Positions 4,547 to 32,499 of a stretch of DNA of 51,048 nucleotides are shown one piece after another; position 1 is the first letter of the stretch; the number at the start of each line of letters is the position of its first letter. The stretch is from positions 1 through 51,048 of the forward strand of contig JAMPGQ010000006.1 in NCBI GenBank assembly GCA_023663825.1. Reading direction: 5' to 3'. The stretch comes from Anaeroplasma bactoclasticum (GTDB lineage: Bacteria; Bacillota_I; Bacilli_A; Acholeplasmatales; Anaeroplasmataceae). The notes beneath the pieces are model-generated. The model was not told the DNA's origin. It saw nothing but the letters and a program-made list of their open reading frames with translations, and searched no databases. The position numbers and the translations under genes are program-made.

Positions 4547-5410
4547 ATGACTAAAAGAAATCTTTGGATTGTTATCGTAAATTCAATAATCGGCATAACG
4601 CTCATTCTCGCGCTTGCTCTTTGCTTGAATCACTTGGAATGGTATTTGCAGATTGTGGGTTATTTTTGCGTTATAGCCTTTACGCTCGGCGATATTATAG
4701 CATTTATTTTGAACAAACAATCCATCGTCAAAAGTTTGTTTCTCTTTAACGTGGTCGCCTTTATCGTTATAGGGAGTTTGGCAATTTTGAACTTATGTGG
4801 TGTTTTCGATAATATGTCCGATTTAGAAAAAGTAAAACAACTGATTTTAGACAGTGGAAGTTGGGGCTATGTGATTTACGCTTTGCTTACGATTTTGAAC
4901 GTAGTTGTATTGCCTATACCCGCGCTTATCATGATGCTTGCTGGAGTTGCTGTTTTCGGCGCACCCAAAACTTTTGTCATTTCCTATATAAGCGTAATGA
5001 TAGGCTCGGCGATTGCTTTTATCATAGGGCGGTATGCGGGGAAGAGATTAGTTACTTGGTGCATAGGCGAAGAAGCGATTGAAAAGTACAAGAAGTTAAT
5101 TGGCAAAAAGGGCAATGCGCTTTTTGTTATAATGCAACTTTTACCATTCTTCCCAGACGATATTTTATGTATGATTGCGGGACTTACGTCTATGAGTTCT
5201 TCATTCTTTATGCTATCTATGCTGATAGTCAAACCTATCTACATTGCGACGGTTTGTTTTATGGGTACGGGGTCGGTTATTCCGTTTTCGGGTTGGGGTA
5301 TTCCCGTATGGATAGCGATATTCATTATAACTGGCGTTGCGTTTATTTTGTTTTGCAAATATCAAAGTAAATTTGAAAAGTGGCTTTCAAAATTTCAAAA
5401 AAAGAAATAA
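4547..5410 (+). CDS. VTT/DedA-type (TVP38/TMEM64) membrane protein
   Basis: A 287-residue integral membrane protein. Three N-terminal hydrophobic segments (about 5-95) precede a VTT domain (about 110-270) with the family hallmarks: a proline-rich re-entrant segment VVLPIPALIMM, the GRYAGKR motif, and LLPFFPDD followed by IAGLTSM. VTT/DedA proteins are implicated in lipid scrambling and membrane homeostasis. It follows the exporter pair after 75 bases with its own ribosome site (GAGGAA, 4531-4536) and shares their G+C-rich codon use, so it probably belongs to the same acquired cassette. The extra N-terminal TM segments are more than the minimal domain needs. Substrate unknown. Confidence 0.82.
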   Translation: MTKRNLWIVIVNSIIGITLILALALCLNHLEWYLQIVGYFCVIAFTLGDIIAFILNKQSIVKSLFLFNVVAFIVIGSLAILNLCGVFDNMSDLEKVKQLILDSGSWGYVIYALLTILNVVVLPIPALIMMLAGVAVFGAPKTFVISYISVMIGSAIAFIIGRYAGKRLVTWCIGEEAIEKYKKLIGKKGNALFVIMQLLPFFPDDILCMIAGLTSMSSSFFMLSMLIVKPIYIATVCFMGTGSVIPFSGWGIPVWIAIFIITGVAFILFCKYQSKFEKWLSKFQKKK

Positions 5411-9040: not shown

Positions 9041-9286
9041 AAATAAGACCTCCTAAAATATTTAAATAAATAATAATAATAACAAGAAACAAACAGTAGG
9101 TACACTTATAGTATCCCATCCTTTTCTTTCATTTAATCAATTCTATTATATCTTTTTTTGTCCCTTTAAGCAATAAAGCATAGTGTAATTTTTCTTTTTA
9201 AAAACTACACGCTTTCTGAAACTAAACTTTGTCTTCCTTTTTGGTGTTTCACAATATAGTTTTTTAAACTAGATAACCTAATGCTA

Positions 9287-23489: not shown

Positions 23490-23987
23490 ATGTTATATTA
23501 TAAGAAATTAGCTTCCTTTTTAGGAACAATTACTATAGTTTGTAGTGAAGAATATTTAATTGCTTTATGGATAGAAGGACAATCTTTAGAATCTCACTTT
23601 GATTTGCAAAAAATGGAGTCTAAAGAAATCCCAATATTATTACAAACAGAGGACTGGTTAAAAAGATATTTCAATAATGAAAAACCATCTCTAAAGGAAC
23701 TACCAATGCATTTAGAGGGAAGTCCTTTTCAACTAGAGGTATGGAAACTATTATGTGAAATTCCATATGGGACAACTGCAACCTATAAAGCTTTAGCTTT
23801 AGAGCTTGCAAGAAGAATGGGTAAAGAAAAAATGTCAGCTCAAGCAGTTGGTGGAGCTGTAGGGAGAAATCCTATTTCTATTATTATTCCATGTCATCGT
23901 GTAATAGGAACAAACGGAGGTATGGTTGGATATAACGGTGGAATATCTATCAAAGAAAAATTATTACATTTTGAAAAAAATATATAA
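23490..23987 (+). CDS. ogt: methylated-DNA-protein-cysteine methyltransferase
   Basis: A 165-residue O6-alkylguanine-DNA alkyltransferase. The C-terminal domain has SPFQLEVWKLLCEIPYGTT, the DNA-reading region AVGGAVGRNP, and the active-site motif PCHRV with acceptor C135, followed by GYNGG. It removes alkyl groups from O6-guanine in a single-use reaction. The length is normal for Ogt. The start at 23490 has only a weak upstream ribosome site (GAATGAAG). A good terminator follows. Confidence 0.93.
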   Translation: MLYYKKLASFLGTITIVCSEEYLIALWIEGQSLESHFDLQKMESKEIPILLQTEDWLKRYFNNEKPSLKELPMHLEGSPFQLEVWKLLCEIPYGTTATYKALALELARRMGKEKMSAQAVGGAVGRNPISIIIPCHRVIGTNGGMVGYNGGISIKEKLLHFEKNI

Positions 23988-23994
23988 AGAGTTA

Positions 23995-24034
23995 AAAAGC
24001 ATGATTGAATTAGTTTTATAATCATGCTTTTTTG
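23995..24034 (+). terminator. intrinsic terminator after ogt
   Basis: AAAAGCATGATT (23995-24006) pairs perfectly with AATCATGCTTTT (24020-24031), and the T run continues to 24033. A strong candidate separating ogt from the next promoter. Confidence 0.85.
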
Positions 24035-24098
24035 TTGTAGAACATTTGTACTACAAAACATCTTCCTTGACAAATGTATGCGGGGGGGGGGGTATAAT
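24035..24098 (+). promoter_or_regulatory. promoter with an 11-G tract against its -10
   Basis: TTGACA (24067-24072) and TATAAT (24093-24098) are separated by 20 bases, and the last 11 spacer bases are an uninterrupted G run (24082-24092) touching the -10. The optimal spacer is 17, so losing three Gs would restore it. A long mononucleotide run here is the expected layout of a slipped-strand phase-variable promoter. A dyad TTGTAG/CTACAA (24035-24040, 24051-24056) lies just upstream of the -35. It drives a secreted protein gene. Confidence 0.7.
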
Positions 24099-24128
24099 GA
24101 AGGTAAATACAGAAAGGAAGAAAAAAAT

Positions 24129-25907
24129 ATGAAAAAAATAAGAAGTTTACTACTTGCCTTTGTAGCATTATTTGCATTCACAATGGCAATAGTAACAGTA
24201 AACGCAACAGTAGAAGTAGAAGATGGCACTACATCATTCTTTGCTGGAGATTTTTATGTTGGCGTTGCAAAGAGTAGTAATAAGCAAGCACCTTCTAGTA
24301 CATCAATTACTAGAAACGGAATTAAGCTTTTAATGCCACCCTCAACTAATAAGTATAATGATGCTTTTGCATTTTCTGAAGCAACGAATGATACAGGTAA
24401 GACTTTCCCTGATGAAATGGCATTCGGTGGTGACCGTACATTTACGATTGATTTAAGTGAATTATCTGATCAGCAGATTGCTACTATCGATTTCTATTGG
24501 TATACAAATAGTGAGAATAAAGTAGTTACAGTTGGATCTTCAGCGGTATCCGTAACAACTGATGCTAATAATATCAATAAAGTATTGAAAACTTCATCAA
24601 TAGATAATTTCACTTCATCTGATGGGCCAACAATTACAGGAAATTCAAATGTTGTATTTTTACAAATTGATGTTCATATTAAATCATTAAAAGTTAGTGC
24701 AGCAGATGCCATTACTGCAATTGGTACAGTATCTTATACACAAGAATGTTTGAATAAGATAAATGTTGCAAAAGCTGCTGTTGATGCATGTGATGATCGT
24801 ACTGCTATTTCTAATATTGCCACATATGATGCCGCTTTAGAGGCTTTTGAACAAGCAAAAGATGCAGCAGTTGCTGATTTTGTTGATAGTGTTAATGCTT
24901 TAGTTATGGTTACAGCAGACTCTTATCCTACAATTGTGGCTTTAAAAGCAAAATATAAGGTGTTATTAGCTGCTGAAAGAGAAGTTTCACAAGTTGTTGA
25001 AGGAAAAGAGAGATTAGATAATGCTGAAGAACAATTATACTATGAAGCATATGACTCATTAAATACAACTCTAAATTTTAATCACTTAGAAGAAAAAACC
25101 TATGATTCAAATGAAATTTTAGCAGAGTCTATATTTAAGGTTTATGCTAGCGAGACAAGTACTGTTGTAGTAGATAGTTCATCAGGTGTAAAAAGACTTA
25201 AATTAGGTGGAGCACAAGTTCCTGCTGGCTCTGAAATTAAGGATGGTAATACTGTTATAGGATATACATCTTCTAATACTAAAACAATTGAATTTGATGT
25301 TATGGATTCAGGTACTTTAAAGGTGAAAGTTCAAAGCTCTTCATCAACTGGTGATCCTCGTAAATTGAATTTATATATGAACACAATTAGTGAGGGTACA
25401 TTTTTACATGAATTTGTTGCACCTACATCAAATCCTGCTGTACAAGAATACAAAATTACAGCAGCTGGACATTATATTTTAGGAAGCCCTGCAAGTGGTG
25501 TTAATATTACAGAGCTTGCATTTGAAAAAGATCCAGAGGTAGAGGCTTCTACTGATTTCTATTTAGATCATGGATATAATGAAGCAGGCACAGAATTAAT
25601 TAGAGTTGTTATGGTTGCTAAAAATGTTGGTACAGCAGAAGTTGAAGTGATGGAAAATTATATCAATACTGGAAAAATCCGTATTAACATTACTAATGCT
25701 AATAATAATAGCCTAATTCTTAATGATACTTCACACTTTATTTTAGCAAAGAATATTGTTACAGGCTCAGGAGCAACTTATTCATTCACTGACTCTGAAG
25801 ATGGTTTAATTGTTTGTGAAGAAGCAGAAAATACACTTTATGGAATATGCGTAATAGCTGTATCTAATGATGGCGCAGACTTGCTTGAACAATATCAAGG
25901 ATGGTGA
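24129..25907 (+). CDS. secreted surface-type protein, unknown
   Basis: A 592-residue protein with a signal peptide (MKKIRSLLLAFVALFAFTMA, probable cleavage after VNA near 32). A beta-rich region (about 38-195) is followed by a helical segment (about 200-265; AIGTVSYTQECLNKI, NIATYDAALEAFEQAK) resembling repeats common in clostridial surface proteins. A second helical stretch and two further beta-rich regions follow. There is no LPXTG motif or C-terminal anchor. The start at 24129 follows AAAGGAAG. The TGA at 25905 is followed in frame by 27 sense codons to a TAA at 25989, hinting at a lost stop-proximal segment or readthrough. Possibly an adhesin or glycan-binding protein; not assigned to a family. 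Confidence 0.75.
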   Translation: MKKIRSLLLAFVALFAFTMAIVTVNATVEVEDGTTSFFAGDFYVGVAKSSNKQAPSSTSITRNGIKLLMPPSTNKYNDAFAFSEATNDTGKTFPDEMAFGGDRTFTIDLSELSDQQIATIDFYWYTNSENKVVTVGSSAVSVTTDANNINKVLKTSSIDNFTSSDGPTITGNSNVVFLQIDVHIKSLKVSAADAITAIGTVSYTQECLNKINVAKAAVDACDDRTAISNIATYDAALEAFEQAKDAAVADFVDSVNALVMVTADSYPTIVALKAKYKVLLAAEREVSQVVEGKERLDNAEEQLYYEAYDSLNTTLNFNHLEEKTYDSNEILAESIFKVYASETSTVVVDSSSGVKRLKLGGAQVPAGSEIKDGNTVIGYTSSNTKTIEFDVMDSGTLKVKVQSSSSTGDPRKLNLYMNTISEGTFLHEFVAPTSNPAVQEYKITAAGHYILGSPASGVNITELAFEKDPEVEASTDFYLDHGYNEAGTELIRVVMVAKNVGTAEVEVMENYINTGKIRINITNANNNSLILNDTSHFILAKNIVTGSGATYSFTDSEDGLIVCEEAENTLYGICVIAVSNDGADLLEQYQGW

Positions 25908-26013: not shown

Positions 26014-26157
26014 ATGAAAATATATGAAAAACCAGTTTTAGAAGAAGAACAAATTCAAATCGAAGATATCTGCGCTGCAAGTAATGTAAACGCAGATATT
26101 CCAGGAGCAAGCCTTCCAGTACCATCTGGAGATGCGTATCATTGGGGAAGAAAATAA
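26014..26157 (+). CDS. 47-residue peptide, possible precursor
   Basis: A small gene behind AAAGGAGA (25997-26004). It starts MKIYEKPVLEEEQIQIEDIC, has a midpoint AASN, and ends in a Gly/Pro/Ser-rich tail with HWGRK. The start resembles a widespread class of short Bacillota proteins beginning with a YEKP-like motif and an acidic ED-I segment, mostly uncharacterised. An acidic leader before a small, less charged tail also resembles peptide precursors, but no modification enzyme is adjacent. It follows the secreted protein gene by 106 bases, with no terminator between, and has its own terminator. Confidence 0.6.
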   Translation: MKIYEKPVLEEEQIQIEDICAASNVNADIPGASLPVPSGDAYHWGRK

Positions 26158-26168
26158 TATCAGTATTT

Positions 26169-26195
26169 ATAGGGTGCTTAGGCACCCTATTTTTG
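26169..26195 (+). terminator. intrinsic terminator after the small peptide gene
   Basis: A perfect 9-bp stem ATAGGGTGC/GCACCCTAT (26169-26177, 26182-26190) with a 4-base loop, followed by TTTTG, 11 bases after the stop. Confidence 0.85.
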
Positions 26196-31730: not shown

Positions 31731-31779
31731 TTTGCTATAATTTTTTTAAAAGCAAATTATACTGGGGGGGGGGTATACT
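31731..31779 (+). promoter_or_regulatory. second G-tract promoter (10 Gs against -10)
   Basis: Ten Gs (31764-31773) directly precede TATACT (31774-31779), the same arrangement as at 24082-24098. No good -35 is visible; TTAAAA (31746-31751) would give a spacer of 22, shrinking to 17 if five Gs were lost. A dyad TTTGCT/AGCAAA (31731-31736, 31751-31756) lies just upstream. It would drive the HAD gene and, because no terminator follows that gene, possibly the maltodextrin genes. Confidence 0.6.
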
Positions 31780-31806: not shown

Positions 31807-32499
31807 ATGCGAAACATGAAAGCGATATTGTTTGATTTATATGGCACCTTGATTGATATTCACACAGATGAGGATAGTATAACATTTTGGAAACAGATAT
31901 CTAAAAAGGTAAAAAAATATTGTGATTATACTCCTAAAGAATTGAAAAACAAATACATGCATATATGTAGAGAACAAGGAAAAGAAAAAGAAGAAATAGA
32001 GATTTTAGAGGTATTTGAAGAACTCTTTTCTATAACTAAACAACAAGCTAAAGAAGTAGCTTGGCAGTTTAGAAAGGCATCAACAAAATATATTCATCTA
32101 TATAGAGGAGTAAAGAAATTGTTGAAAAAGGTAAAGAAAGAAGGATATTCACTTTATGTGCTATCAAATGCCCAAGAAGCATTTACTTTACCTGAATTAA
32201 AAAAATTAAAAATAGAACATTATTTTGAAGGGATTGCAATTTCATCAGCCTATGGAATAAAAAAGCCTAATTTAGAATTTTTTCGATTAGCTTTGAAGAA
32301 TTTTAAATTAGATAAGGCAATTATGATAGGTAACGATTTAAAATGCGATATCCTTCCTGCAAAGGAGCTAGGATTAAATCATATACTGATTGAATCTAAT
32401 CTTACTCCTATCAATGAAGAAGAGGATAAAATCATTGGATTTCAATGGAAAAAAATCTTCAATAAAATTTTAGCTATTAATTTGGGAAACCAAAATTAA
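31807..32499 (+). CDS. HAD-superfamily hydrolase
   Basis: A 230-residue HAD subfamily IA protein: motif I AILFDLYGTLID (nucleophile Asp; the second position is Tyr, as in haloacid dehalogenase-type members), motif II LSNAQE, motif III KKPNLEF, and motif IV GNDLKCDI, with a helical cap at about 20-90. Likely a sugar-phosphate phosphatase, given the setting before maltodextrin genes, but the substrate is not readable. ATGs at 31807 and 31816 are both possible: GAGGAG lies 2 or 11 bases upstream, neither ideal. A 63-base gap without a terminator leads to the binding-protein gene. Confidence 0.8.
   Translation: MRNMKAILFDLYGTLIDIHTDEDSITFWKQISKKVKKYCDYTPKELKNKYMHICREQGKEKEEIEILEVFEELFSITKQQAKEVAWQFRKASTKYIHLYRGVKKLLKKVKKEGYSLYVLSNAQEAFTLPELKKLKIEHYFEGIAISSAYGIKKPNLEFFRLALKNFKLDKAIMIGNDLKCDILPAKELGLNHILIESNLTPINEEEDKIIGFQWKKIFNKILAINLGNQN

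Follow-up and report, generated by a model that had tools for sequence, protein, structure and literature searches.

A poly-G promoter spacer as a probable phase-variation site of a secreted-protein gene in Anaeroplasma bactoclasticum, with similar promoters in its family and beyond

An uninterrupted run of 11 Gs separates the -35 and -10 boxes of a promoter in Anaeroplasma bactoclasticum, and the question is whether this tract serves as a switch for the gene behind it. The locus lies within a 51,048-nt stretch (hereafter the window), for which a preliminary description had pointed out the G tract, the spacer of 20 between TTGACA and TATAAT, and the A+T-rich setting. On checking the sequence, the positions and the spacer length were found to be correct, and the GC content of the window is 32.6%. 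The arrangement TTGACA-N9-G11-TATAAT thus places a homopolymer between two recognizable boxes, as in promoters of the porA kind. The tract is also longer than the uninterrupted 8 or so nucleotides associated with slippage in such promoters (G11 here, 8-11 genome-wide). We consider it very probable that slippage at this tract makes the promoter, one of the sigma-70 type, phase-variable. The features of the locus are collected in Table 1.

Table 1. Features of the G11 promoter and its target unit, with the second tract and further loci of the small peptide (positions refer to the window unless a locus is named)
Feature	Position	Strand	Basis or remark
Rho-independent terminator of upstream gene	23994-24032	+	13-bp perfect inverted repeat, T tail; RNA fold
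-35 box TTGACA	24067-24072	+	sequence; consensus match 6/6
Constant 9-nt spacer part AATGTATGC	24073-24081	+	non-G part is 9 nt in 23/38 G-tract promoters of the family
G11 tract, proposed slippage site	24082-24092	+	sequence, shuffle control
-10 box TATAAT	24093-24098	+	sequence
Ribosome binding site AAAGGAAG	24113-24120	+	sequence; 8 nt before ATG
Secreted protein gene, 592 aa, signal peptide MKKIRSLLLAFVALFAFTMAIVTVNA	24129-25907	+	beta-rich; no Pfam domain; internal TGA end
In-frame continuation, 27 codons and TAA	25908-25991	+	end YIVQGAQ resembles homologues' C-terminus YTVLGAQ
Second gene of unit, 47-aa peptide MKIYEKPVLEEEQIQIEDICAASNVNADIPGASLPVPSGDAYHWGRK	26014-26157	+	conserved after homologues of the secreted-protein gene; one of the 43-47 aa peptide loci
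Terminator of two-gene unit	26169-26190	+	RNA fold
Second tract, G10 then TATACT	31764-31773	+	upstream of HAD-hydrolase gene 31807-32499
43-47 aa peptide locus	L223, about 2351-2490
43-47 aa peptide locus	L224, after 2226	-
43-47 aa peptide locus	G000:C32:9931-10059
43-47 aa peptide locus	G042:C221:9875-9997
43-47 aa peptide locus	G044:C44:7147-7269

The ORF at 23490-23987, which from its sequence we take by eye to be methylated-DNA-cysteine methyltransferase-like, is closed by a strong terminator (RNA fold -14 kcal/mol, z -4.7); therefore, the tract promoter should be the secreted gene's own. The preliminary description had called the target a surface-type protein. The signal peptide, as well as homologues with the same signal sequence, agree with export, and an exposed or secreted product is what promoters of the porA kind control. 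However, a Pfam search of the 592-aa protein returned no domains and no anchor was seen, and we therefore call the product secreted rather than surface-type. Its predicted structure (mean pLDDT 36) is not usable. Homologues extend about 28 residues past the TGA at 25905-25907, and the homologue-like C-terminus lying beyond it suggests that this in-frame TGA truncates the protein. Reading TGA as tryptophan (code 4) is unsupported, as TGA ends 8 of the 40 long ORFs in the window. Since TGA is a normal stop here, the window copy could be a truncated one or the base an error; with a stop before its usual C-terminus, the copy may also be decaying, which speaks against the phase-variation reading. 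The second gene of the unit belongs to a group of peptides of 43-47 aa that follow such secreted-protein genes. Their first ~23 residues (MKKYEKPxLExExVQIEDIC) are common to 24 of 55 genomes of the family, and a conserved start with a variable remainder resembles a leader plus a variable core. Searches of the peptide against Pfam and NCBIfam gave no matches.

G runs of this length are far beyond chance expectation. In the window, G runs of length 5 occur six times and those of 10 and 11 once each, while lengths 6-9 are absent; 0.0005 runs of at least 11 G or C are expected. G9 was matched at five overlapping positions, compared with 0.08 expected from dinucleotide shuffles. Runs of A and T never exceed 8, despite an A+T content of 67%. 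Pattern searches of the whole genome (2.06 Mb in 98 contigs) yielded 14 G runs of 8 or more. Directly 3' of these runs, on the same strand, lies TATAAT in nine cases and TATACT in one, and one further run adjoins ATAAT at a contig end. The chance that at least 10 of 14 runs would adjoin TATA[AC]T is about 5e-25, and the reversed pattern, used as a control, had no matches in the whole genome. Thus, the G11-TATAAT arrangement is not a chance one. The preliminary description had included neither this genome-wide pattern nor the second tract of the window. The latter is the weakest of the tract promoters in the genome, having TATACT as its -10 box and a HAD hydrolase gene as its target; at 17-20 nt, no -35 box could be recognized. 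To judge from their shared flank, contigs C25 and C53 probably represent the same locus, which leaves about ten tract promoters in the genome. Poly-C in the same promoter position shows no excess over chance.

The three remaining G runs lie in a recombinase gene, in signal-peptide codons and just before a Shine-Dalgarno sequence, respectively. The latter two, both G10, lie on the minus strand of L049. One (5050-5059) occupies signal-peptide codons of a large secreted protein with Listeria-repeat and Big_2 domains; the two halves of this gene are in different frames, and the tract is likely a translational switch in the same genome. The other (9078-9087), in the 5'UTR of a 269-aa ORF with a TTG start, directly precedes a Shine-Dalgarno sequence. 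We also observed a sequence of ~118 bp, with CAACCCCTAGGGGTT and TGTGTCTACTTTTATAATAGCA, just upstream of tract promoters at two loci here and at one in G051. It is found in L042 (4870-5040) and on the minus strands of L044 (5130-5260) and L100 (about 1380-1500). In L042 it flanks transposase-like ORFs that by eye resemble the IS3 family; no transposase was seen beside it at the other loci.

Promoters of this design are not confined to one genome. Among the Anaeroplasmataceae, a family placed in the Mollicutes by NCBI taxonomy, G8-TATAAT is present in 14 of 55 genomes (16 by a looser pattern), compared with none of the 105 genomes from other families of the order. A class-level draw of 296 genomes contained 20 carriers, and the present genome has the most. 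The 38 promoters of the family with at least 5 Gs before TATAAT recurrently follow the layout TTGACA-N9-Gn-TATAAT, with n of 8-11 in 34 cases and 6-7 in the other four. In a wider scan using one genome per species, TTGAC-N6-17-G8-TATAAT was found in at least 117 stretches (loci L105-L221), the taxa among the matches listed being Bacilli, Clostridia, Saccharibacteria, Spirochaetia and a few others; some of these matches may be due to chance. Tracts among the matches listed reach G14-G16 in single cases, and the majority of the ORFs behind them appear to encode secreted proteins.

The genes behind the tracts share a functional bias. By a crude rule, a simple predictor, signal peptides were assigned to 82 of 113 ORFs behind tracts; for ORFs that follow ordinary promoters within these stretches, the figure was 4 of 25 (Fisher P 2e-7, among the matches listed). 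Among the targets in the present genome are sequences with signal peptides and lipoproteins; Listeria-Bacteroides repeats occur in several of them, and a GDSL lipase domain in one. A HAD hydrolase and a zinc-ribbon protein are also among them; that not all targets are secreted is a point against phase variation. Overall, the downstream genes appear to encode mostly secreted proteins.

Ordinary TTGAC-TATAAT promoters of this genome have a spacer peak at 17 (38 of 93), whereas in the family's tract promoters the commonest length is 18 and the longest 20. Within the range of 16-20, spacers of at least 18 occur in 26 of 35 family tract promoters, compared with 20 of 71 ordinary ones from this genome (Fisher P 9e-6, orthologues kept in the count). 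Thus, long tracts are common and lie mostly at or above the spacing optimum. In the wider set, the 124 spacers among the matches listed include 21 of length 16, 8 of 17, 31 of 18 and 35 of 19, so that the distribution has peaks at 16 and at 18-19 with a dip at 17.

Homologous promoters allow a closer comparison. Homologues of the window gene were found in G045 and G048, and a broader group of genes has the same signal peptide and the small-peptide gene in common. In four homologous promoters the G block is interrupted (GGGAGGGG, GAGGGGGG, TAGGGTGG and ATGGGTGG), and all four have a spacer of 17. Interrupted blocks of this kind should be poor in slippage. Uninterrupted tracts in homologous promoters with the 9-nt constant part have spacers of 17, 17, 18 and, in the window, 20, both promoters at 17 having G8; two more peptide-linked promoters, with a 10-nt constant part, have spacers of 18 and 19. 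Interrupted blocks at 17 and uninterrupted ones at 17-20 are the expected result if the promoters work at a distance of 17 and uninterrupted tracts wander about this value. The earlier suggestion that three fewer Gs would restore the best spacing is in line with the four interrupted homologues, with the two G8 promoters and with the peak of ordinary promoters at 17.

Tract length in related genomes had been proposed as a check, and its outcome is divided. The best pair, near-identical orthologues in the sister species G037 and G038, has G8 and G6 between flanks that are 97.8% (upstream) and 98.5% (downstream) identical. More distant pairs and paralogues have tract lengths of 8/9, 10/9, 9/10 and 9/11. 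On the other hand, equal lengths are retained across species by three orthologous tracts of G8 (87-95% flank identity) and two of G10 (98.5%). As far as can be judged from different species or paralogues, these comparisons show that tract length changes between lineages. Together with the slippable spacer and the signal-peptide target, the length difference between near-identical orthologous promoters supports the layout of a phase-variable promoter put forward in the preliminary description.

The proposed mechanism can be outlined as follows. Replication slippage within a population would add or remove Gs and thereby alter the distance between the -35 and -10 boxes. Transcription is predicted to depend on this length, being strongest at G8, which gives 17 bp, and weak or off at the assembled G11, which gives 20 bp; the assembled length itself may be wrong, as the genome is a metagenome assembly. 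The switch would control the two-gene unit of the 592-aa secreted protein and the 47-aa peptide. With about ten such promoters in this genome, cells could come to display different sets of secreted proteins, and varied secreted or surface proteins might benefit the cell in the gut through immune, phage or adhesion diversity. MutS usually lowers slippage, which weighs against slippage at the tract, although other phase-variable bacteria also retain mismatch repair. Loss of mismatch repair was rejected as the cause of the tracts, as MutS is present in all 11 genomes of the genus. A third MutS-family gene (G000:C15:5894-6406) has an internal TAA here, whereas the sister species in which it was detected has it as an open frame.

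Several other explanations of the tract have to be considered. The G-rich spacer might be a fixed regulatory sequence of constant length, either a regulator site or a DNA-shape element that tunes co-regulated promoters of secreted proteins. The retention of interrupted G-rich blocks (GGGTGG, GGGAGGGG) in homologues would fit such an element, as would the equal length of some tracts across species and the recurrent consensus TTGACAAAA on the -35 side. However, the interrupted blocks are alike only in G-richness and in their size of 8 nt. Uninterrupted runs of up to 11, and elsewhere up to 16 among the matches listed, exceed what a protein site needs, the two-base difference between the near-identical orthologues falls exactly within the tract, and the same genome also has tracts in coding and 5'UTR positions. 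We regard a fixed element as unlikely. A neutral origin, in which the tract is a relic or by-product grown by slippage where the gene was no longer needed, would account for a spacer 3 bp above the optimum and for a TGA where homologues continue. About ten such promoters with a fixed architecture and a bias to secreted proteins do not look neutral, and the window, at 67% A+T, lacks A and T runs longer than 8, which makes this origin very unlikely.

An artefact of sequencing or assembly, or a miscounted length, such as the poly-G artefact of two-colour Illumina chemistry, is the least credible of these explanations and can almost be dismissed. Its main attraction is that for 5 of the 14 tracts a contig end is no more than 160 bp away (C25, C41, C44, C53 and C74; P about 1e-6, with a threshold chosen post hoc). 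Moreover, C25 and C53 look like the two ends of one locus, with 20 bp after the tract in common and surroundings that disagree. Yet real mixtures of lengths would also break contigs at the tracts, and the position of tracts near contig ends fits such mixtures as well as sequencing dropout at G runs. Where a contig breaks at a tract, its sequence begins with G instead of finishing in G, the reverse of the pattern left by the chemistry artefact; G11 is internal to a 51-kb contig with promoter boxes on both sides, and the tract design recurs in independent genomes from other studies. Finally, an invertible promoter (inverton) was considered and rejected in the absence of flanking inverted repeats, the search for repeats having yielded just the stem of the upstream terminator and one weak intragenic pair.

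Slippage in a promoter spacer, the preferred explanation, has close parallels. The vlp promoters of Mycoplasma hyorhinis, which precede clustered lipoprotein genes, contain a poly-A spacer. Similarly to the present case, a homopolymer in the spacer alters promoter geometry and several surface genes per genome are involved, again in a Mollicute. In contrast, the present promoters have poly-G and scattered loci, and the window protein is not a lipoprotein. Membership in the vlp system itself was rejected because of the G tract, the single gene without a lipobox and the scattered loci. The preliminary description, which had compared the locus with vlp, had treated the use of G as unusual; this does not hold, as the porA promoter of Neisseria meningitidis, with poly-G between its -35 and -10 boxes, is the textbook example (van der Ende et al., 1995, via PMC7864442). 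According to that secondary account, tract length in porA sets the -35/-10 spacing and the target is a surface protein, as proposed here. Unlike porA, an outer-membrane porin gene of a Gram-negative pathogen, the window promoter belongs to a gut bacterium related to Mollicutes and precedes a unit of a secreted protein and a small peptide, and about ten promoters of one design are present in the genome.

In Treponema pallidum, variable poly-G tracts of at least 8 nt control the tpr surface-protein genes genome-wide (PMC7864442). Tracts of 8 nt or more before genes of surface or secreted proteins are likewise spread over the present genome; the tprL tract, in contrast to the window promoter, overlaps the -10 region and leaves the -35/-10 spacing unchanged (PMC7864442). 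Another example is Bifidobacterium breve, also a Gram-positive gut commensal with G-tract switches, where slippage in pili tracts of G9-G12 was observed by deep sequencing and shifted in mice, and G tracts in promoter spacers were mentioned (PMC9187656). The tracts studied there differ from the present one in lying inside coding sequence and switching the frame (PMC9187656).

Thus, the promoter-spacer mechanism itself is already known, from poly-G in porA and poly-A in vlp. In a search of open-access papers, we came across neither a report on Anaeroplasmataceae nor a survey covering such promoters in gut Bacillota. What is new, as far as the searchable papers go, is the repertoire in a gut Mollicute family and the wide occurrence in gut Bacillota. 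Work on phase variation by simple repeats has centred on pathogens, and a recent review points out that its seeming confinement to this group may be a database bias (PMC11868660). We lean towards the view that the stereotyped promoters with TTGACA, about 9 fixed bases, G8-G11 and TATAAT form a genome-wide phase-variation repertoire for secreted proteins in uncultured Anaeroplasmataceae. With the matches to this pattern in many gut Bacilli and Clostridia, Saccharibacteria and Spirochaetota, it would then be a common, overlooked gut switch beside invertons. The interrupted homologues at spacer 17 provide a natural control, which makes the spacing model directly testable. If such a repertoire exists in uncultured gut Mollicutes and other gut Bacillota, the surface diversity of commensals would be readable from existing metagenome reads by counting Gs.
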